Positions 1 to 11,999 of a stretch of DNA of 11,999 bases are shown in pieces (positions within the stretch are counted from its first letter, which is position 1; each line of letters begins with the position of its first letter). Source of the DNA: an uncultured Ruminococcus sp. Lineage in GTDB: Bacteria; Bacillota; Clostridia; Oscillospirales; Ruminococcaceae. The DNA lies in NCBI GenBank assembly GCA_902796865.1, contig CADBQZ010000205.1, forward strand, positions 1 to 11,999. The letters run 5' to 3'. Both the position numbers and the translations under genes were made by a program. The notes beneath the pieces were generated by a model, which had not been told where the DNA came from, did no database searches, and worked only from the letters and a program-made list of their open reading frames with translations.

Positions 1-737
1 CAGTGAATAAAATACTTTTCAGCGGAGAAGTAATGCCTTTAAAGCATCTTAACGAATGGAGAAAGCATATACCTGATGCTTTATATGTAAACCTTTATGG
101 ACCTACCGAGATAACCTGCAACTGTACCTATCATATACTCAAGAAGGACAAGGATTATTCAGAAGGTATACCGATAGGAAAACACTTCCCTAATGAAGAT
201 GTTTTTCTGCTTAATGATAATAATGAGCGCATTACAGAAAAAGGCAAGACAGGAATGATCGTCGTAAGAGGTACTGCGCTTGCGCTCGGATACTACAAGC
301 TTCCCGAAAAAAATGAAGAATGCTTTGTACAAAATCCGCTGAACAAATGCTACCCTGAACTTATATACAAAACCGGAGATCTTGGATTTTTCGATGAGAA
401 CGGTGACCTCAGATTCTGCGGCAGAGCAGATTTCCAGGTAAAGCATATGGGCCACAGGATAGAGCTTGAAGAAATAGAAAGAGCTATGTCTGCTATCGAC
501 GGCGTTGAAAGATGCTTCTGCGATTTCGATGAAAAGAAGCAGAAACTCAAAGGCTACTATGTAGGAAGCATAGAAAAAAGCGAACTTCATAAAATAATGC
601 GTGAAACAATGCCTGTATTTATGGTCCCGGGACTTTTAAGACAGGTAGATGAAATGATACTTACAAAAAACGGTAAGATAGACAGAAAGAAAACCGCTCA
701 GCTGATAGGAGGTCAGAATGGAAAAAAAGATACTTGA
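1..737 (+). CDS. Amino-acid adenylation enzyme, DltA-like (C-terminal part; 5' end outside window)
   Basis: This is the C-terminal 244 residues of an ANL-superfamily adenylating enzyme, open at the left edge; the first full codon is at base 3 and the GTG there is an internal Val codon. Such enzymes make an aminoacyl-AMP and load it onto a carrier protein. Visible core motifs, numbered in the fragment: YGPTE (32-36, A5), YKTGDLG (122-128, A7), GRADFQVKHMGHRIELEEIE (140-159, A8 hinge) and NGKIDR (223-228, A10, with catalytic Lys225). The protein ends soon after A10, so there is no fused carrier domain, which fits a stand-alone DltA-type ligase. The segment ILFSGE (4-9) aligns by eye with FLFCGE of DltA, so the Cys that favours D-Ala there is Ser here. 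The substrate is therefore uncertain. The 3' end overlaps the decarboxylase gene by 20 bases, and the carrier protein gene is two genes downstream. The adenylation family is secure; the substrate is not. Confidence 0.9.
   Translation, partial: VNKILFSGEVMPLKHLNEWRKHIPDALYVNLYGPTEITCNCTYHILKKDKDYSEGIPIGKHFPNEDVFLLNDNNERITEKGKTGMIVVRGTALALGYYKLPEKNEECFVQNPLNKCYPELIYKTGDLGFFDENGDLRFCGRADFQVKHMGHRIELEEIERAMSAIDGVERCFCDFDEKKQKLKGYYVGSIEKSELHKIMRETMPVFMVPGLLRQVDEMILTKNGKIDRKKTAQLIGGQNGKKDT
707..712 (+). promoter_or_regulatory. Ribosome binding site of the PLP decarboxylase
   Basis: A perfect AGGAGG lies 5 bases before the ATG at 718, inside the last codons of the adenylation gene. It fixes the decarboxylase start and shows the 20-base gene overlap is real, with translational coupling likely. 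Confidence 0.8.
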
Positions 738-1908
738 CCGGCTGATAAATGATAATAAAAATGCTTTCTATGTTTTCGATTCCGATAAATTAAAAGAACG
801 TATAGGATTCTTACGAAAACATCTCCCGGAAGATGTTGAGCTTTGTTATGCGGTAAAAGCGAACCCTTTTATCTCAAAAGAGCTTGAAGACATCGTTGAA
901 CGCTTTGAGATATGCTCTCCGGGTGAAGCCGATATATGCTGTGAACTTGAAATAGACAGCAGTAAAATGGTCATATCCGGCGTATATAAAACCCCGGAAG
1001 TCATTGAAGAAATGGTAAGAAAAGCTGATTTTTCCGGTATTTTCACGGCAGAGTCTCTTACACAGTACAGACAGCTTTGTGAGCTTTCCGAACGATACGA
1101 TCAGAAACTTACAGTATTGCTCCGTCTTACAAATGACAGTCAGTTCGGAATGAATGACGAAGATATAATTGATATTATAAGCAAAAGGACCGAATACAAA
1201 AACATATATATAAAAGGCATACAGTATTTTTCGGGCACACAGAAGACATCAATAAAAAGATTCAAACGTGAACTTGAACAGCTCGATAAATTTCTCATCA
1301 AACTTCATGAGGAATACGGCTTTGATGCTGATGAGCTTGAATACGGCACCGGGTTCCCTGTTTCATATTTTGAAGGCGAAAATTCAGATGATTCTGAGCT
1401 TATTGACGGCTTTTCAGAGCTACTCAAAAATATGACGTATAAAGCAAATATCGTTCTGGAGCTTGGAAGAAGCATTGCTGCCTGCTGCGGAACATATTAT
1501 ACACATATCGTTGACATAAAACAGAATAAGGGCATAAATTATGCTCTTATCGACGGAGGTATGCACCATATTGTATATTTCGGTCAGCATATGGCAATGA
1601 AAAAACCTTATTTTTCAATTGTTGGCAAAGAAATAAACGATGATGATAAACTTTGGACAATATGCGGTTCATTGTGTTCTATGAATGATATTGTCGTAAA
1701 GCAGGTACCTTTGGCTGATATTGAGATAGGTGATGTTCTTTGTTTTGAAAATACCGGTGCATATTGTATGACCGAAGGTATTTCTCTCCTTCTGAGTCGT
1801 GATATTCCCGGCATATATATAGTAAGAAACGAAAACGAGCTTTACAAAGTCCGTGATTCGTTTGAAACAAAAAATATAAATACACCCAAATACGAAAGGA
1901 TATGTTAA
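718..1908 (+). CDS. Fold-type III PLP-dependent decarboxylase, BtrK-like
   Basis: A 396-residue alanine-racemase-fold enzyme of the Orn/Lys/DAP decarboxylase superfamily. An N-terminal PLP barrel carries the Schiff-base lysine in YAVKAN (Lys47), the ICSPGE segment (65-70) and GIQYFSGTQ (167-175); a glycine-rich phosphate-binding loop follows at 210-213 (GTGF, where relatives have GGGF), then ELGRS (248-252). The C-terminal beta domain has DGGMHH (279-284), CGSLCS (316-321) and NTGAY (345-349). From memory, GTQ, DGGMHH and GAY match BtrK, which decarboxylates glutamyl-S-carrier protein to GABA-S-carrier protein. The usual HxGS motif reads FSGT, so the His that stacks on PLP is Phe171. The Cys-Asp pair of ornithine decarboxylase reads Cys320-Ser321, so a basic side chain is unlikely to be bound in the usual way. 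Lying between an adenylation gene and a carrier gene, it probably acts on a carrier-linked amino acid or supplies the ligase's substrate. A racemase or DAP decarboxylase role is a less likely alternative. Confidence 0.85.
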   Translation: MEKKILDRLINDNKNAFYVFDSDKLKERIGFLRKHLPEDVELCYAVKANPFISKELEDIVERFEICSPGEADICCELEIDSSKMVISGVYKTPEVIEEMVRKADFSGIFTAESLTQYRQLCELSERYDQKLTVLLRLTNDSQFGMNDEDIIDIISKRTEYKNIYIKGIQYFSGTQKTSIKRFKRELEQLDKFLIKLHEEYGFDADELEYGTGFPVSYFEGENSDDSELIDGFSELLKNMTYKANIVLELGRSIAACCGTYYTHIVDIKQNKGINYALIDGGMHHIVYFGQHMAMKKPYFSIVGKEINDDDKLWTICGSLCSMNDIVVKQVPLADIEIGDVLCFENTGAYCMTEGISLLLSRDIPGIYIVRNENELYKVRDSFETKNINTPKYERIC

Positions 1909-1910
1909 AA

Positions 1911-2138
1911 ATGGAAAGACTTATCGAAATTTTAGAAGACATCCAGCCTGATGTTGATTACAAAAACTGTGAAGATCTTATTGATGCACATCATCTTGAT
2001 TCACTCGCTATAATCTCGCTTATAGCTGAACTTGAAGATGAATTTGATGTTACTATCCCTGCTGTTGAGATAATCCCTGATAATTTCAATTCAGCAGAAA
2101 GAATAATGAAAATGATAGAGCGTCTTCAGGAGGACTAA
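1911..2138 (+). CDS. Acyl carrier protein, DltC/ACP-like
   Basis: A 75-residue acidic carrier protein of typical size. The phosphopantetheine attachment serine is Ser31 in HHLDSLAI, the DSL motif at the start of helix 2, followed by the acidic recognition helix SLIAELEDEFDV. It would hold the activated amino acid as a thioester for the adenylation enzyme upstream and deliver it to the MBOAT downstream. It has DSL, as in fatty-acid and polyketide carriers, where DltC usually has DSF. An in-frame ATG at 1902 would give 78 residues and overlap the decarboxylase stop by 7 bases, but the only Shine-Dalgarno-like run (AAAGGA, 1895-1900) ends one base before it and ten before 1911, so 1911 is preferred. 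No phosphopantetheinyl transferase is visible in the window; the genome must supply one. Confidence 0.88.
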   Translation: MERLIEILEDIQPDVDYKNCEDLIDAHHLDSLAIISLIAELEDEFDVTIPAVEIIPDNFNSAERIMKMIERLQED

Positions 2139-2141
2139 AAT

Positions 2142-3767
2142 ATGACATTGGAATCCTTGCTTTTAGCTGGTAAAGGCAAGTCACTGACATCATTTTTTTC
2201 ACTGTCATATCTGTTGGTCGTTTTGCCTTTTTCGGTGGGATTATATGCCATAACCCCCAAAAAATGGAAAAAATATTCACTTCTGTTTTTGAGTTATCTT
2301 TTCTTTTGGCTCATTAGCGGAAGCCTGATAGTTTATCTTTTCATAACTACCCTATCCATACATTATCTTGCTATATGGATAGACCGGCTAAACGGACAGC
2401 AAAAACTTGCAGCCGCAGGGCTTGGAAAAGATGAAAGAAAAATAGTCAAGCAGGAATTTCTCACAAAAAAACGTATGATAGTATTCCTCGGTGTGGTAAT
2501 ACACATCGGAATGATACTTGTACTCAAATATTCGGCGTTCTTTACAACGAATATAAATACTATTTTTAAGACGTTTGGCATAGGAATAACGCTTCAGATA
2601 CCAAAATATCTTATGCCTATAGGTATATCTTTCTTTACCATGCAGGCACTTTCCTATATAATCGACGTTTACCGTGGAGTTATAAAGGCTGATGATAACC
2701 TCGGAAGGCTCGCATTGTTTATAAGCTTTTTCCCGCAGATCGTGGAAGGTCCTATCTGCCGATACAGTCAGACCGCTGATCAGCTCTGGAATGCAAAACA
2801 GATAACCTATAAAAATCTCTCTTACGGCGCTCAGCGGATCCTTTACGGTGCGCTGAAAAAATATGTGGTCGCTGACAGACTTAATCTGCTTGTTAAAAAT
2901 GTCTTTGACCAGAAACAAGAATACTCAGGACCGATCGTTGCTTTTGCAGCTATTTGCTACACTATACAGCTCTATATGGACTTTTCGGGTTCGATGGATG
3001 CTGTTACAGGTACGGCACAGATATTCGGCATAACAATGCCCGAAAACTTTGCAAGACCGTTTTTCTCAAAGACTATATCAGAATTCTGGCAAAGATGGCA
3101 TATCAGCCTCGGTGCGTGGTTCAGAGATTATATTTTCTATCCGGTAACCACCTCGAAACGTATGAAGAAGATAACCTCCGCTTCACGAAAGAAGATCGGA
3201 AACCACTACGGACCTCTTCTTGCCGGAAGCGTGGCGTTGTTCTGCGTATGGTTCAGTAATGGTTTGTGGCATGGTTCTGCATGGAGCTACATCTTCTTCG
3301 GAATGTATCACTTTGTACTGATACTTACAGGAAATATGATGGGACCTATCGTAAAAAAATTCAATGCAAAGTTCCACATCAATCCGCAAAGTGCCATATA
3401 CAAAGGCTTACAGATATTCCGTACAGTTATCCTTGTAATTATCGGTGAGCTGTTTTTCCGTGCAAAGGGTCTTAAAGCAGGTCTTAAACTATTCAAAAAA
3501 ATGGTTACAGACTTTTCGCTCCCGGATCTCAGCAAGCTTGAGCTTGGCATAGATAAGTATGATCTTATAATAGTTGCTGTTGTACTTGCAATAATCCTGT
3601 TTGTAAGTATCCTCAACGAAAAGGGCATCTGTGTAAGAGATTCGCTTTCAAAAAAGCCTACAGCAGTACGCTGGCTCGTTTTCTATGGACTTATACTCCT
3701 TATAATCGTATGCGGAGCATATGGATTCGGCTATAAGCCTGTTGATCCAATATATGCTAAATTCTAG
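2142..3767 (+). CDS. Membrane-bound O-acyltransferase (MBOAT), DltB/AlgI-like
   Basis: A 541-residue polytopic membrane protein of the MBOAT family, which moves an acyl group from a cytoplasmic donor across the membrane to a hydroxyl on a surface or secreted polymer. Family landmarks: MPIGISFFTMQALSYIIDVY (158-177), QLYMDFSGSMD (276-286), FWQRWHISLGAWFRDYIFYP (315-334, with His320), and NGLWHGSAW (373-381), where His377 is the invariant MBOAT histidine in the central funnel. The C-terminal hydrophobic stretch (511-529) and the ending near DPIYAKF recall AlgI/PatA proteins. Length is somewhat above DltB and close to AlgI. AGGAGG at 2128-2133, inside the ACP gene, sits 8 bases before this ATG, and only 3 bases separate the two genes. 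Placement after a carrier protein gene suggests that the donor is the carrier thioester, as for DltB-DltC. The acceptor polymer is unknown. Confidence 0.92.
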   Translation: MTLESLLLAGKGKSLTSFFSLSYLLVVLPFSVGLYAITPKKWKKYSLLFLSYLFFWLISGSLIVYLFITTLSIHYLAIWIDRLNGQQKLAAAGLGKDERKIVKQEFLTKKRMIVFLGVVIHIGMILVLKYSAFFTTNINTIFKTFGIGITLQIPKYLMPIGISFFTMQALSYIIDVYRGVIKADDNLGRLALFISFFPQIVEGPICRYSQTADQLWNAKQITYKNLSYGAQRILYGALKKYVVADRLNLLVKNVFDQKQEYSGPIVAFAAICYTIQLYMDFSGSMDAVTGTAQIFGITMPENFARPFFSKTISEFWQRWHISLGAWFRDYIFYPVTTSKRMKKITSASRKKIGNHYGPLLAGSVALFCVWFSNGLWHGSAWSYIFFGMYHFVLILTGNMMGPIVKKFNAKFHINPQSAIYKGLQIFRTVILVIIGELFFRAKGLKAGLKLFKKMVTDFSLPDLSKLELGIDKYDLIIVAVVLAIILFVSILNEKGICVRDSLSKKPTAVRWLVFYGLILLIIVCGAYGFGYKPVDPIYAKF

Positions 3768-3771
3768 GAGG
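3766..3771 (+). promoter_or_regulatory. Ribosome binding site deciding the SGNH gene start
   Basis: AGGAGG overlaps the MBOAT stop codon (TAG, 3765-3767) and lies 8 bases before the ATG at 3780. A longer reading frame could begin with the GTG at 3771, but that codon overlaps the Shine-Dalgarno itself and cannot be the start. Confidence 0.8.
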
Positions 3772-3779
3772 TGTATGTC

Positions 3780-4766
3780 ATGAAAAGCTTTTTTAAACAC
3801 GCTTTGAGGATCCTGATATTTAGTCTGATACTCTTTATAATACTGTTTGTACTGTCTGGAATAATGACACCAAAGTCAAACAATAAAGATGACGGTATGT
3901 ATGACGAACTTGCAAACGGCGTACTAAGCGAACCTGAAAACACTCTTGATGTTCTGTTTATAGGCGACAGTGAGGTTTATTCAGGCATTATGCCGATAAA
4001 ACTTTGGAAATATCATGGTATAACCTCTTATGATTGCAGTACTTCAGGTCAGCAATTGGCATATTCACTGGAATTTCTCCATAATACGCTTATATCGCAA
4101 TCGCCGAAACTTGTTATAATGGAAACAAATGCTTTTTATAGAAAGCTTTCATTTGATGATTCCATAATATACAAAGCCGGTATGATACTTCCAGTTTTCA
4201 AATATCACGATCGTTGGAAGCATCTGCATCTTAACGATTTTAATATTAATGCGGAAATAGAGTATAATTATAACGATACAAACAAAGGTTATAAATTCGT
4301 CGGTAAAGCCAATCCGGCAGATGATTCAAAATATATGACTGCTTCTAAAAATGTAAAAGAAATAACATCAAGGAATAAATCATATATTAAAGATATCAAA
4401 AAATTCTGCGATCAGAATGATACTGAACTCGTATTTCTTAGTACGCCAAGCACAAAAAACTGGAATTACGAAAAGCATAACGGAGTTCAGGAGCTTGCTG
4501 ATGAGCTCGGTGTTAAATTCATTGATATGAATACATTTGCCGATGATCTTGAGATCGACTGGAGCAAAGACACATACGATCAAGGCGACCATATGAATTA
4601 TTATGGTGCTACTAAGGTAACAAATTATCTTGGCGATTACTTTGAAGAACTTGGTATTTTCACAAGTCATAAAGATGATAAAAAATACAGTTCATGGGAC
4701 GAAAGTACTAAAAAGTTCTATGAAATGCTTGCAAGACATCTTGATCCAAAAGATTATGAGGACTGA
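3780..4766 (+). CDS. Membrane-anchored SGNH-fold protein, DltD/AlgX-like
   Basis: A 328-residue protein with one N-terminal membrane helix (about 8-27, after a basic start MKSFFKH) and an extracytoplasmic SGNH/GDSL-type domain. Block I is LFIGDSEVYSG (60-70) with nucleophile Ser64; GQQ follows at 90-92; a C-terminal DQGDHMNYYGA (267-277) supplies His271. Spacing is DxxxH or DH, not the textbook DxxH, so the acid partner is unclear. SGNH proteins next to MBOATs (DltD, AlgX, AlgJ, PatB) help transfer the acyl group to, or bind, the polymer outside the membrane. By position this is the last step of the operon. It is shorter than typical DltD (about 400 residues), and the match is to the SGNH fold in general more than to DltD. 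Its stop codon lies inside the terminator stem. Confidence 0.82.
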   Translation: MKSFFKHALRILIFSLILFIILFVLSGIMTPKSNNKDDGMYDELANGVLSEPENTLDVLFIGDSEVYSGIMPIKLWKYHGITSYDCSTSGQQLAYSLEFLHNTLISQSPKLVIMETNAFYRKLSFDDSIIYKAGMILPVFKYHDRWKHLHLNDFNINAEIEYNYNDTNKGYKFVGKANPADDSKYMTASKNVKEITSRNKSYIKDIKKFCDQNDTELVFLSTPSTKNWNYEKHNGVQELADELGVKFIDMNTFADDLEIDWSKDTYDQGDHMNYYGATKVTNYLGDYFEELGIFTSHKDDKKYSSWDESTKKFYEMLARHLDPKDYED

Positions 4767-4786
4767 TTATCAGTCCTCATTTTTTA
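4756..4786 (+). terminator. Rho-independent terminator of the acyl-transfer operon
   Basis: Arms 4756-4766 and 4770-4780 form a perfect 11-bp stem (ATGAGGACTGA / TCAGTCCTCAT) with a 3-base loop, followed by a T run at 4780-4785. The left arm includes the last codons and the stop codon of the SGNH gene, so it ends the operon with no 3' untranslated space. Confidence 0.85.
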
Positions 4787-4827: not shown

Positions 4828-7683
4828 TTATTCGGTTTTATTCTGAAACTCATCGTTCTCTGTATTATCGCTGCTTAAACTTATCTCTTGGGTATCATTA
4901 TTATCATAAGTGTTGTTTATGTCGTCACTACTGTAACTACTTTCTATAATCTCTTTACTGTCATTGTCTATGTCACTACTGCTTATGCTATTGTCAATAT
5001 CGGTGTTATTGTTATCGTTATCAGCAATACTTCTATTAAGTTCTTCTTCATTTTTTGAATTTTTCTTTATTCTTCTTACAACCAATATGGCAAGCTCTAT
5101 AAGTATAATACCGCCTACTATCGCTGAGAATAATGGTACAAGTCCAAGCCCTTCGCTGCCGGTGCTGTCCGACTTTTTAGAGCTTTCATACTCCTGCGGT
5201 TCATAATCCCCGGCTGCCGGATTTTCGTCACCATTGACTGAGAGAATATTCTGGTCTGCCTCAATCGAACCATATGTCGAAACGATACCGCCACCCTGCT
5301 GTGCAACGTATGCTGAGAGCCATGCAAGCGGAGCATTCCAGTTTATAGTACATTCATTTACAGACCACGCTTCGATATTATCCATATAGCATTTTGCAGG
5401 TGCTATCTCACCAGGTTTCCAGCCTGAACCTTTGACCCATGGATCCTGCATACCTGAATTAGGTCCGCCCACAACAACACCGCTTGGCGCTTTAGGGAAG
5501 CTGTTGTCAGCCTGATACGACCACCATCTGTGATGCGGATTTTCTGCCGCATGAGTGCCGTATCCTGTGACATATGAATAATCCATAGGGTTTCTGCCCA
5601 GTATGTAATCCATTCCGCTAACAACACCGTTAAGATATTTGCTGTCCTTTGTAAGCTCATAAGCATATGCCATTATAATATCATTATTCATGACAAATGA
5701 ATTTGAACCCCAGCAATATCCCTTATCATCTATATCATAATTTATGGTGCTTTGCTCATAAGGCTGTCCGTAGCCCTGCTTATCAGAAAGTGATCTGTAG
5801 TATTCTCCTGCTATCTTGAAAGAATCGGTAAGCTTTAAAAGCATTTCATTATCTATCTTGTCTCTGTTTAAAGCCATAGACATATCGCCTAGTGCAGCAG
5901 TATGTGCCCAGTTGAATACTCCTGCTGAGCCCCTGTCCTCACCGCCGTTCAAGCTCGTTTCAAGCTTTAAATAATGCTTTGAAGCTTTCATATCTTCAAG
6001 ATAGCTCTGTTCACCTGTTGTAATATACAGCTCACTTGCTGCCCAATAGAATTCATCAGATGCGTCATCATCTCCATAAGGACCGCCGCCTACCGATTCA
6101 TCTATCGGTGCATACATCTCAGGATGCTTCTTTGCAGATTCATATGCCGCCTGAGAATTTATAAGACATTGTTTTGAAAACTGAGGATCAAGATCTTTCC
6201 AAAGTCTTGATGCCTGTGCCGCACAAGCAGCCATATTAAGAGTTGCTGCAGTCGTCGGCGGCTTTATCACACGCTCTTCTGTATCATCTGAAGGTGCAAG
6301 CGCTAACGCAGTCCACTTTTTATCATGTACCTTGTGGTAGACCATATTAACATAGTCTCCGTCTTTCACCATCATTTTGAACATCCACTCAAGTTCGTAT
6401 CTTGCTTCGTCGAGAATATCAGGATATTTATTGCTGCTTTCAGGTATCATCATACTGCCGTCTGCAAAAATATCATCATAGCCGTTATTTAATGCCATTT
6501 CATACTGATTCTGCATAGTCCAGAGCGAGATACCGCCGTTTACAACATACTTTCCGTGGTCGCCTGCATCATACCAGCCGCCCGTGACATCCTGTGTACC
6601 GCTGCTTCCGGAATAGCCCCATGTTTGTTCGATAGTGGCATTATCGGAAGGATGACCCGCATCTCTTGCAAGCGAAGAACTATCCCCTGACGTAATATAC
6701 TTACTTTCTATAGGTATTCCGCTTCGGTTCTGATAAAAATAATTGAGCGCATCAAAAAGCATATATGAATAAAGCTCTCCGCCGCCTATGCTGAATTCAC
6801 GGCTTTTTGCGCCGTCAGATGCTTCGAGATAATATGTTCCCGGCTTATCAAAATCGGAAAAATCAAGTATATGTACTTCATCTCCCGAGTCTTCATCATA
6901 CCCTATCGGTTTGGATTTTCCGGAAAAGACTTCATCTCCGCTCTCATTTTTAAGACTAAAATCTACTGCAGAACTATCATCAGATAAAAGTGTTGCCCTT
7001 TTCTTCAGGCTGCTGAAATATCCGAGCTGATTGGTAAGTATATCCGAACGAACCCAGCTGTCATCAGCCTTATAGTCGTTGGTATCACTTGTCTTATCAA
7101 TAAGCGACATATTATCAAAAGTAAATACTGTTCCTTCCGGTACGCTGTCGCCGCCTATATGAAATGCCCATTCGACCTCTGCTGTTCTCGAAGCTGTAAA
7201 TTTTCCTTCAACGTGCTCCTTTTTTCCGGCAGTAAGCGGCTTTACGTCCCATGTCGATTCATGCTGTGAAGGATCGGATTCGCCGTGCCAGTCTTCTGCA
7301 TACGGTTCTGACATATCACCTATCTTTGAATAATATGTACAGTCATTTGATGCGGTTATATCAAATGCGACTTCATATTCATCTCCGCTCTGTAGAGTGA
7401 GACCCCTGTGCCTGAACTGACAATCCCATCTGTCCTCGCCGCCGTTTGAAGCTCCGCCCGGATTTACGATAGTTACCTTATATTCACCGTCTGTTATTTC
7501 AAATTCCATCTCTCCCGGAGCAGATTCACAGACGTGCCACGGAAGTCCGACTCCGTTTTCAAAATCTGTCTGCCCGAGCTGCTGCCCTGCAAAAACAGTT
7601 TCCGACGGAAGATACGTTATATTAAGGAGCGCTGCTGAGACCGAAACAGCTGCAGCAACTGCCCTTTTCAAAATGCCTTTCAT
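4828..7683 (-). CDS. GH9 cellulase, CelK/CbhA-type, with C-terminal membrane anchor
   Basis: A 951-residue secreted glycoside hydrolase family 9 enzyme, expected to cleave beta-1,4-glucan in cellulose. Order: signal peptide (1-32, likely cut after VFA); CBM4-like carbohydrate-binding module (about 36-196, with GVGLPWH at 44-50); Ig-like domain (about 213-299, NQLGYF at 218-223); GH9 catalytic domain (about 303-795). GGWYDAGDHGKY (368-379) holds the catalytic aspartates Asp372 and Asp375. GYGTHAAENPHHR (707-719) is the His-containing GH9 signature. YMDNIEAWSVNECTINWNA (766-784) fits the second signature with acid Glu777. From memory this closely matches C. thermocellum CelK and CbhA, known as exo-acting cellobiohydrolases. 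Those end in dockerins; here a linker leads to one hydrophobic helix (846-869), a basic RRIKK stop-transfer and an Asn/Asp/Ser-rich tail of about 80 residues. A membrane-anchored surface enzyme is inferred. The start is set by AAGGAGG 7 bases upstream. Confidence 0.95.
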   Translation of the reverse strand: MKGILKRAVAAAVSVSAALLNITYLPSETVFAGQQLGQTDFENGVGLPWHVCESAPGEMEFEITDGEYKVTIVNPGGASNGGEDRWDCQFRHRGLTLQSGDEYEVAFDITASNDCTYYSKIGDMSEPYAEDWHGESDPSQHESTWDVKPLTAGKKEHVEGKFTASRTAEVEWAFHIGGDSVPEGTVFTFDNMSLIDKTSDTNDYKADDSWVRSDILTNQLGYFSSLKKRATLLSDDSSAVDFSLKNESGDEVFSGKSKPIGYDEDSGDEVHILDFSDFDKPGTYYLEASDGAKSREFSIGGGELYSYMLFDALNYFYQNRSGIPIESKYITSGDSSSLARDAGHPSDNATIEQTWGYSGSSGTQDVTGGWYDAGDHGKYVVNGGISLWTMQNQYEMALNNGYDDIFADGSMMIPESSNKYPDILDEARYELEWMFKMMVKDGDYVNMVYHKVHDKKWTALALAPSDDTEERVIKPPTTAATLNMAACAAQASRLWKDLDPQFSKQCLINSQAAYESAKKHPEMYAPIDESVGGGPYGDDDASDEFYWAASELYITTGEQSYLEDMKASKHYLKLETSLNGGEDRGSAGVFNWAHTAALGDMSMALNRDKIDNEMLLKLTDSFKIAGEYYRSLSDKQGYGQPYEQSTINYDIDDKGYCWGSNSFVMNNDIIMAYAYELTKDSKYLNGVVSGMDYILGRNPMDYSYVTGYGTHAAENPHHRWWSYQADNSFPKAPSGVVVGGPNSGMQDPWVKGSGWKPGEIAPAKCYMDNIEAWSVNECTINWNAPLAWLSAYVAQQGGGIVSTYGSIEADQNILSVNGDENPAAGDYEPQEYESSKKSDSTGSEGLGLVPLFSAIVGGIILIELAILVVRRIKKNSKNEEELNRSIADNDNNNTDIDNSISSSDIDNDSKEIIESSYSSDDINNTYDNNDTQEISLSSDNTENDEFQNKTE

Positions 7684-10492: not shown

Positions 10493-10834
10493 TTATTTTC
10501 CTACTCTGTGTACCGGTACGGCAGCGAAGAATATCAGATCTTCATCAGAATCATTTATAAGACTGTGTGAATGACCCTCCGGACAGTAGTGACACTCGCC
10601 TGCACTCACTTTCTCCTCAGTATCATCATAAAGAACCCTGCCTTTGCCCGATATAATGAATATTATCTCGCTTGTTCCCTCATGTTTATGATAACCGATA
10701 GATGCACCGGGAATAAGCTTTCCTTTCATTATCTTATTATTTTCATCATCAAACATGAATACACGGTATTCCTTTTCACCGCCCTTGAAATTCGGAAGCA
10801 CCTTTTCTTCCATACTTTCAAATCCTATTTTCAT
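10493..10834 (-). CDS. Single-domain cupin protein
   Basis: A 113-residue protein made almost entirely of one conserved cupin barrel. Motif 1 (G-x5-HxH-x4-E-x6-G) is complete from Gly43 to Gly63 with His49, His51 and Glu56. Motif 2 (G-x5-PxG-x2-H-x3-N) is complete at GECHYCPEGHSHSLIN (79-94) with His90. Together these are the 3-His/1-Glu ligands for a divalent metal, commonly Mn, Fe, Ni or Zn. Small cupins act as isomerases, dioxygenases or sugar/metabolite-binding proteins, and nothing here decides which. The ATG overlaps the TGA of the upstream gene by 4 bases, with AAGGAGGA about 6 bases before it, so it is translationally coupled in the mntP operon. A metal-related role is possible from context but is only inferred. 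Confidence 0.88.
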   Translation of the reverse strand: MKIGFESMEEKVLPNFKGGEKEYRVFMFDDENNKIMKGKLIPGASIGYHKHEGTSEIIFIISGKGRVLYDDTEEKVSAGECHYCPEGHSHSLINDSDEDLIFFAAVPVHRVGK

Positions 10835-11445
10835 TTTTTATCCTCCTTTTTTTCTTTTTCTATATCAATTTCAACTAACGTTCCGCCTATTTTGTAAACT
10901 CTGTAATTACGCTTATATACTTTAAGTACCATATAGATAAGTACTGCTCCAAGCATTATTCCGGAAATCATGACGATAAATTTCACATTGCTGAAACTTG
11001 AACAGCTTATCATAAAACCGTACATCATTATAGCTGAAACACTGCCTATAATAAAGCTTATCAATATACTTCTTTTCTTTTTTCCATCAAGCCTGTCCTT
11101 TAAAAACACACACATCACACCAAAACTTGAAAAAATTCCTGAACAGCCATATATGTATATACTAATATATGCTCTGGATTCGCTTACACAACATATAATA
11201 GAACTCAATATAAGAGCTATTCCGGAACAGATAAGAAATACCGCAAATTTAGTGAGCTCAAGAGTAGGTTTATTTTGATCTTCAGAAACTGATGTGCTGC
11301 CAACATAGCTATTCTCCATCGGCGTATAGGACGTTTTCACTTTATGCTCCTCGGTATTTTCCGATACCTTCTTAAATACATAGTTCTTTTTAAGACTCTC
11401 AAATGTATCAAGCTTTCCGTCCTTGTTAAAATCAAAAAAGTCCAT
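10831..11445 (-). CDS. Four-helix membrane protein with an N-terminal EF-hand loop
   Basis: A 204-residue protein I do not recognise as a named family. It opens with a textbook 12-residue EF-hand calcium loop, DFNKDGKLDTFE (5-16): Asp, Asn, Asp, Gly, Leu, Asp and Glu fall at loop positions 1, 3, 5, 6, 8, 9 and 12. A polar region (17-65) follows, then four hydrophobic helices at about 66-87, 92-115, 126-146 and 154-175, and a charged Lys/Glu C-terminal tail. There is no signal peptide, so the EF-hand side and the tail are probably cytoplasmic. Translation starts at 11445 with GGAGGA 4 bases upstream. The stop codon of the mntP-like gene is one base before this ATG, and the cupin start overlaps this gene's stop. 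A role in ion sensing or transport is suggested only by the EF-hand and the neighbouring metal exporter. Confidence 0.75.
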   Translation of the reverse strand: MDFFDFNKDGKLDTFESLKKNYVFKKVSENTEEHKVKTSYTPMENSYVGSTSVSEDQNKPTLELTKFAVFLICSGIALILSSIICCVSESRAYISIYIYGCSGIFSSFGVMCVFLKDRLDGKKKRSILISFIIGSVSAIMMYGFMISCSSFSNVKFIVMISGIMLGAVLIYMVLKVYKRNYRVYKIGGTLVEIDIEKEKKEDKK

Positions 11446-11446
11446 T

Positions 11447-11999
11447 TTATCCTCCGAAGAAAACGTGCTCTACAAATATCTTTACTCCGATCCCTACTAA
11501 AATAAGACCGCCCACGAGCTGTGCCTTATTGTTGAGTATCGTTCCAAATTTTTTACCGATAAATACTCCGCAGGTACCAAAAATAAACGTTATAAAACAG
11601 ATAGCTGAACAGGCAAACGGAACGTTTACATCAGTAAGTGCTGCAAAGCTCACACCGACCGCAAGAGCATCAATGCTTGTAGCTACGCCCTGCATAAGAA
11701 GCATTTTAAGAGTAAGAGTACTCCCGGTCTGTTCTTCCTCTTCCTTTTTGAAAGATTCCCATATCATCTGTCCGCCTATAAAGCATAATAGTACCAGAGC
11801 TATGATATGATCGACTGCACGGATATACTTAGCAAATCCGACCCCGAGCAAAAATCCTATAAGCGGCATCAACCCCTGAAACAGCCCGAAACAGACTCCG
11901 TTTGCGAGTGCTCCGCCTGTTTTGATATTCTTACAGCAAAGCCCGTTTGTAACGGCTACCGCAAAAGCATCCATTGAAAGTCCTATGCCTATAAGTATA
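11447..11999 (-). CDS. mntP: MntP-type manganese efflux pump (5' end outside window)
   Basis: A small polytopic membrane protein of the MntP (former DUF204) family, which exports Mn2+ from the cytoplasm. The internal ATG at 11974 is not the start: reading further on the - strand gives LIGIGLSMDAFAVAV without a stop up to the window edge, and SMDAFA is an internal family motif preceded in E. coli MntP by the first part of helix 1. The two-fold pattern is visible, with the conserved aspartates in SMDAFA and, about 100 residues later, SIDALAVG. A charged KKEEEE loop separates the two halves, and the C terminus GGLILVGIGVKIFVEH is characteristic. Only about 7-10 residues are probably missing. It is the first visible gene of a three-gene operon. 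A Mn-sensing yybP-ykoY riboswitch often precedes mntP, but that region is not in this window. Confidence 0.9.
   Translation of the reverse strand, partial: ILIGIGLSMDAFAVAVTNGLCCKNIKTGGALANGVCFGLFQGLMPLIGFLLGVGFAKYIRAVDHIIALVLLCFIGGQMIWESFKKEEEEQTGSTLTLKMLLMQGVATSIDALAVGVSFAALTDVNVPFACSAICFITFIFGTCGVFIGKKFGTILNNKAQLVGGLILVGIGVKIFVEHVFFGG

Follow-up and report, generated by a model that had tools for sequence, protein, structure and literature searches.

The D-alanylation of cell-surface polymers is the textbook route by which Gram-positive bacteria tune their surface charge and resist cationic peptides. The operon responsible (dlt: DltA, DltC, DltB, DltD and DltX) brings together an adenylation enzyme, a carrier protein, an MBOAT membrane acyltransferase and an SGNH protein. 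Here we describe an operon of like composition at the start of a stretch of 11,999 nucleotides from an uncultured Ruminococcus sp. (contig CADBQZ010000205.1; henceforth the window). It codes on the + strand for an adenylation enzyme (A), inside whose gene the window starts, followed by a pyridoxal phosphate (PLP)-dependent decarboxylase (DC), a carrier protein (ACP), an MBOAT and an SGNH protein, and it ends in a terminator-like hairpin. Unlike dlt, this operon possesses the additional decarboxylase, its A pocket is not of the DltA type, and a tyrosine shuttle motif is fused to the MBOAT, whereas dlt has the separate DltX.

Other described systems share parts of this plan. The exosortase A-associated ligase and decarboxylase, defined by the models TIGR03098 and TIGR03099, have to our knowledge no demonstrated function. 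TIGR03099 is the best NCBIfam model for the DC (170.5 bits) and TIGR03098 matches the partial A (96 bits); the operon proteins are, however, far under the cut-offs of both models (478 and 592). In the butirosin system (BtrJ/BtrI/BtrK) the ligase BtrJ is an ATP-grasp enzyme rather than an adenylation enzyme. The decarboxylase of that system, BtrK, is described as converting glutamyl-S-BtrI to 4-aminobutyryl (GABA)-S-BtrI (PMC7857480), with the product destined for an aminoglycoside. A pairing of an adenylation enzyme with ACP-bound decarboxylation is provided by the vicenistatin (VinN/VinL/VinO) and fluvirucin (FlvN) pathways: as outlined in PMC11284099, VinN loads 3-methyl-Asp and FlvN loads Asp on a stand-alone ACP, with decarboxylation following on the ACP. 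The product there goes to a polyketide synthase; the operon instead has an MBOAT/SGNH export pair. Finally, MBOAT/SGNH pathways other than Dlt are presented in PMC12148441 as operating without a similar carrier protein: in the peptidoglycan O-acetylation system PatA/PatB, PatA uses acetyl-CoA, in contrast to the operon with its linked A-DC-ACP loading module.

We propose, with a probability that we put at roughly 60%, that the operon specifies a pathway for surface acylation into which a decarboxylation on the carrier is built, and which furnishes an omega-aminoacyl ester on a surface polymer. A would activate a dicarboxylic amino acid via its side-chain carboxylate and load it on the ACP; the DC would then remove the free alpha-carboxylate of the ACP-held residue to give an achiral omega-aminoacyl thioester, which would be beta-alanyl if the diacid is Asp and 4-aminobutyryl if it is Glu. 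The MBOAT would move this group across the membrane onto the Tyr in the PIYAxF motif at its own C-terminus; the SGNH protein would then pass it to a cell-surface polymer as an ester. Loading by the side chain is proposed because a PLP enzyme could not decarboxylate an alpha-loaded residue at that carboxylate. The operon is well conserved and is probably a variant of surface acylation of the Dlt kind, with a DC that acts on the carrier. The surface esters would most likely be beta-alanyl or GABA esters, the pairs Asp/beta-alanine and Glu/GABA standing as alternatives. As comparative genomics the support is strong; the chemistry is predicted from the genes.

A scan of GTDB genome contigs recovered 271 with a relative of the DC, and the 80 best of these were retained for reading. 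In a position-based tally, 71 of these 80 loci have A-DC-ACP-MBOAT-SGNH in order, and a chance neighbourhood of the five genes was therefore rejected. The gene set with its terminator, seen in a preliminary description made from the window alone, is real, and the genes are regularly together elsewhere; the refutation that this description envisaged, the five being rarely neighbours in other genomes, does not apply. The operon is interrupted by a contig end in seven further loci; in L101 the SGNH gene is located upstream of A, and in L105 an SGNH gene was sought at the locus without one being found. The hosts among the relatives include Ruminococcus bromii, Agathobaculum, Catenibacillus scindens and Pseudoflavonifractor. 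Within the order the DC is patchy (13 of 295 genomes at E<=1e-60), and the MBOAT adjoins it by coordinates in 12 of the 13; in G139 the two genes are near the ends of two separate contigs. Across the class there are DC matches in 21 of 391 genomes (E<=1e-35), 7 of these 21 being weaker BtrK-like proteins of 131-150 bits. Some relatives of the DC are annotated as 'alanine racemase' or 'diaminopimelate decarboxylase'. Among the papers listed by our searches of the open-access PMC literature we found neither a description of the five-gene set nor a report of beta-alanine or aminobutyryl groups on teichoic acid. If our proposal is correct, many Clostridia (the 271 genome contigs with a relative) would carry a surface chemistry missed by D-Ala assays and by current gene names.

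Seven further regions with DC scores above 290 bits have A and ACP beside the DC in every case, in four overall arrangements, and six of them also have the MBOAT and SGNH genes. Rearranged orders among divergent relatives are MBOAT-SGNH-A-DC-ACP (L148), DC-ACP-A-MBOAT-SGNH (L149 and L150) and A-ACP-DC-MBOAT-SGNH (L129); L151 has A-DC-ACP with no adjacent MBOAT. In phylogenetic trees that include 10 of the 80 main loci, the A of L149 and L150 falls in the DC-type A group (support 97/93) and their MBOAT in the DC-less MBOAT group (100/99); the A of L129 is unplaced (53/2). Given that the A and MBOAT of L149 and L150 fall in different groups, A-DC-ACP behaves as a loading unit, one that seems to have changed its export partner to another MBOAT lineage. 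An A search across the 295 genomes of the order returned 11 full-length matches of 777-897 bits, all in genomes with the DC, with the window's own A showing up as two halves; the next match, at 581 bits, is from a genome without the DC, and the divergent G291 has an A of 518 bits with the DC present. By these matches, the A subfamily of the operon and the DC go together within the order.

The pocket of A is nearly invariant. Positions 235, 236, 239, 278, 301, 330, 331 and 517 are D, V, K, A, S, C, N and K in all 76 main loci whose A could be read (in L052, L056, L084 and L106 it is off the contig start), and the remaining two of the ten code positions, 299 and 322, show small variation; the same eight residues recur in the seven further operons. 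The A of the window genome is divided between two contigs, which were read separately, without joining: the A2 profile covers positions 1-261 on the piece from contig C90, which carries D-V-K, and 267-503 on the window piece, which carries the later code positions. Lys239 is a residue of the diacid type: in the surfactin Glu domain, K239E is reported to have shifted specificity towards Gln (PMC11355689), whereas the code given for Asp/Asn domains, DLTKVGHVGK, has its Lys at 278 instead (PMC12283262). The D-Ala pocket of DltA is described as having Asp, Leu and Cys at 235, 236 and 301; the same source cites bulkier residues at 236 and 301 in VinN (Phe231 and Ser299) and the substitution A236V in an engineered TycA for beta-amino acids (PMC11253843). 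The operon A thus departs from DltA with Asp, Val and Ser at 235, 236 and 301, and it has bulkier residues of the VinN type at the latter two positions; Val236 and Ser301 recall VinN and the A236V version of TycA. The beta13-beta14 loop, whose shortening is a marker of side-chain-activating enzymes like VinN, shows no gap against LgrA A2, and a one-residue gap against the DltA-like enzyme of L132 that is common to the DC-less relatives. Taken as a whole, the pocket points to a diacid substrate, but not to one particular diacid.

The DC belongs to the LysA/BtrK side of its fold. BtrK is its best solved relative by profile search, and the Z scores of BtrK and LysA as fold matches for it are tied. 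LysA has an Arg, a Tyr and a Glu that we take to be its substrate-binding residues, and all three are present in 28 of 28 LysA proteins from the genomes of the relatives, inclusive of the window genome's own LysA on contig C56. Among 89 operon DCs the Arg position is Tyr in 88 and Phe in one, and the Glu position is Thr in 47 and Ser in 42; the eight BtrK-like proteins uniformly have Phe and Thr, and BtrK itself is similar, with an aromatic residue and Thr. The Tyr is retained in 17 of the 89. An unrooted tree with 9 of the 80 main loci and nine other operon DCs resolves three groups, operon DC, BtrK-like and LysA, and the operon DCs form a clade separate from BtrK (100/100). Since the Arg and Glu are replaced throughout and LysA exists separately, the DC is not a LysA paralogue, and that candidate was rejected. 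The DC is thus a PLP decarboxylase of fold type III that lacks the Arg and Glu of LysA and is linked to its own A and ACP, as in systems of the BtrK/VinO type. The preliminary description had compared it with BtrK, which agrees with the loss of two of the three LysA residues; its appeal to BtrK as the precedent holds for the residues and is too narrow, as VinN/VinL/VinO pair adenylation with ACP-bound decarboxylation (PMC11284099). BtrK-like decarboxylases of other Clostridia (L152-L158) probably belong to small-molecule clusters: in the three examined (L152, L156 and L157) the gene is beside an ATP-grasp protein above the Pfam cut-off, and that of L152 also adjoins a thioesterase.

These observations bear on two other ways of ordering the chemistry. 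The LysA-like side of the fold would suit a pathway in which A loads meso-diaminopimelate by one alpha-carboxylate and the DC yields lysyl-ACP and ultimately lysyl esters; in such a pocket Lys239 would suit the distal carboxylate and Asp235 the alpha-amine. We consider this decidedly improbable: none of the 89 operon DCs retains the Arg or the Glu of LysA, lysine could be loaded in its free form without this detour, and the genome has its own LysA. Alternatively, the DC may act on the free amino acid (Glu to GABA, or Asp to beta-alanine), with A loading the product, so that the same surface group results from the same gene set. IdnL3 of incednine is given as a case in which beta-glutamate is decarboxylated ahead of loading (PMC11284099). 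We regard this order of events as unlikely, in that the invariant Lys239 (76 of 76) would be unexpected in a pocket for GABA or beta-alanine, the DC is like the BtrK-like enzymes at the residues compared, and it remains with A and ACP even when the MBOAT lineage changes.

The export pair downstream of the loading module preserves the elements expected of acyl transfer through tyrosine. A C-terminal xxYxx(F/Y) tail is found in 73 of 74 main-set MBOATs, the remaining one ending at a contig end; the count leaves aside the split L086 and five loci with no MBOAT on the contig. The tail is also present in all 25 other MBOATs. In PatA and DltX, the role of acyl shuttle is ascribed to a hexapeptide of the FxYxxF kind (PMC12148441); the main-set motif starts with Pro in place of Phe (PIYAxF) and keeps the invariant Tyr, as in shuttles of the PatAB/DltBDX kind. 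The operon thereby combines a carrier protein with a fused shuttle motif, and is an intermediate between Dlt, with a carrier protein and a separate shuttle, and PatA, with a fused shuttle and no carrier protein. In the SGNH protein the catalytic residues Ser67 and Asp273-His274 are the same across all 11 sequences compared, and its fold is confirmed in a predicted model; a search of the sequences of solved structures with the SGNH alignment gave nothing useful. The ACP Ser34 (counted from 1902) is likewise invariant in 11 of 11 sequences, with the start at 1911 being preferred over 1902 on the basis of the relatives and the spacing.

With A, ACP, MBOAT and SGNH fitting the dlt plan, and the NCBIfam models for DltA, DltC and DltB all matching, one might read the locus as an ordinary D-alanylation operon with the DC as a passenger or acting elsewhere. 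All these matches, however, are below cut-off. The window's partial A scores 134.9 bits against DltA and its MBOAT 165.5 bits against DltB (cut-off 375). Across 14 DC genomes every DltA match is between 240 and 304 bits against a cut-off of 559.85, so that none of the 14 passes, versus 2 of 14 control genomes in the same search; DltB, too, is above cut-off in 0 of 14 DC genomes versus 2 of 14 controls (G000 and G005 are incomplete drafts, at 89% and 88%). Further, at 8 of the 10 code positions the pocket of A departs from that of the near-canonical DltA encoded in L132, and the DC tracks the A subfamily of the operon. An ordinary dlt operon was rejected on the pocket and the cut-offs, in line with the earlier view that this is not a plain D-Ala system, and we hold the passenger reading to be highly improbable. 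Under the pathway with carrier-bound decarboxylation, a decarboxylated amino acid would replace D-Ala where DltA and DltB are not found above cut-off.

Neither of two acceptor markers is constant: of 14 genomes, 4 have TagF (PF04464) above cut-off and 11 have PF00884, a broad family that holds the lipoteichoic acid synthases. The three commonest neighbour families of the 80 loci are response regulators (33 loci), histidine kinases (30) and an ABC-transporter family (16), checked in Pfam via two, two and one members, respectively. Of the 64 loci with two called genes ahead of the operon, 14 have a two-component pair immediately upstream on the operon's strand, which is a further likeness to dlt. 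No polymer-synthesis family is prominent among these recurrent neighbours. Together with the lone A-DC-ACP of L151 and the thioesterase beside the L152 gene, this could suggest that the loaded group ends up on a lipid or on a small molecule that is secreted. We judge such a destination improbable: an MBOAT and SGNH pair with a C-terminal Tyr shuttle is the arrangement described for envelope polymers (PMC12148441), and G462, the host of L151, has four MBOATs elsewhere whose matches extend to the C-terminal end of the model. Decarboxylation on the carrier with delivery to a surface polymer through MBOAT and SGNH, as first proposed in the preliminary description, accordingly stands as the best-supported reading, with the substrate, product, ester bond and acceptor as its predicted parts.

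Relatives of the export pair are also found without the DC. Among the high-scoring DC-less MBOAT regions we considered a set of 17 (others, e.g. G054, G150 and G178, are outside it): 11 are A-ACP-MBOAT-SGNH operons, and in four (L117, L118, L119 and L124) an FkbH protein replaces A ahead of ACP-MBOAT-SGNH, with TIGR01686 above cut-off in all four and ACP matches that are weak in three and absent in L119. L120 and L123 have different surroundings. The FkbH loci suggest that glyceryl-ACP feeds the same kind of export pair. The DC-less A enzymes have two classes of pocket. Class I (L112-L116) shows Ser235-Met236; as Ser takes the place of Asp at 235, the substrate is possibly not an amino acid. 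Class II (L121, L122 and L125-L128) has Asp-Ala/Gly-Lys with Gly301, and may load Glu without decarboxylation; because these DC-less enzymes have Lys239, this residue alone does not imply decarboxylation. A more tentative proposal, to which we give somewhat less than even odds, is that Clostridia possess a plug-in platform: a single ACP-MBOAT-SGNH line, whose MBOAT has its own Tyr shuttle, would be served by interchangeable loading modules such as a lone A, of which there are at least two other pocket types, A paired with the decarboxylase, or the FkbH-type glyceryl loader. The version with the DC would coat commensals of the gut and rumen, Ruminococcus bromii among them, with base-labile GABA or beta-alanine esters rather than D-alanine. 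Their cell surface would thereby gain a positive charge that is achiral and a bioactive amino acid that can be released.

Table 1. Features of the operon; positions refer to the window unless another source is named.
Feature	Position	Strand	Supporting evidence
A, C-terminal part (244 aa), stand-alone adenylation enzyme	3..737	+	AMP-binding Pfam
A, N-terminal 261 aa, on contig C90 of the same draft genome	L166:3-785	-	AMP-binding Pfam
DC, PLP decarboxylase of fold type III (alanine racemase fold), operon-specific clade; PLP Lys47, Cys320	718..1908	+	
ACP with phosphopantetheine Ser	1911..2138	+	PP-binding Pfam
MBOAT membrane acyltransferase	2142..3767	+	His320 and His377 invariant in a 12-sequence alignment
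PIYAKF hexapeptide at the MBOAT C-terminus, acyl-shuttle-like, Tyr538 (PatA/DltX type FxYxxF)	3747..3764	+	
SGNH protein, membrane-anchored; GDS Ser67, Asn120, Asp273-His274 (numbering from 3771)	3780..4766	+	
Terminator-like hairpin that overlaps the SGNH gene end, T-rich tail after it	4756..4780	+	

Beyond the hairpin sits a convergent gene for a GH9 cellulase (window 4828-7683, - strand) with CelD_N and CBM_4_9 domains, the C-terminus of which has a hydrophobic helix and, after it, a long tail that is acidic and rich in Asn and Ser. Further along, a 204-aa protein (10831-11445, - strand) has an N-terminal EF-hand-like DFNKDGKLDTFE stretch and then hydrophobic segments, and gives a weak match to TssN, below cut-off. 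The last gene (11447-11998, - strand), truncated by the window end, codes for an MntP manganese efflux pump.

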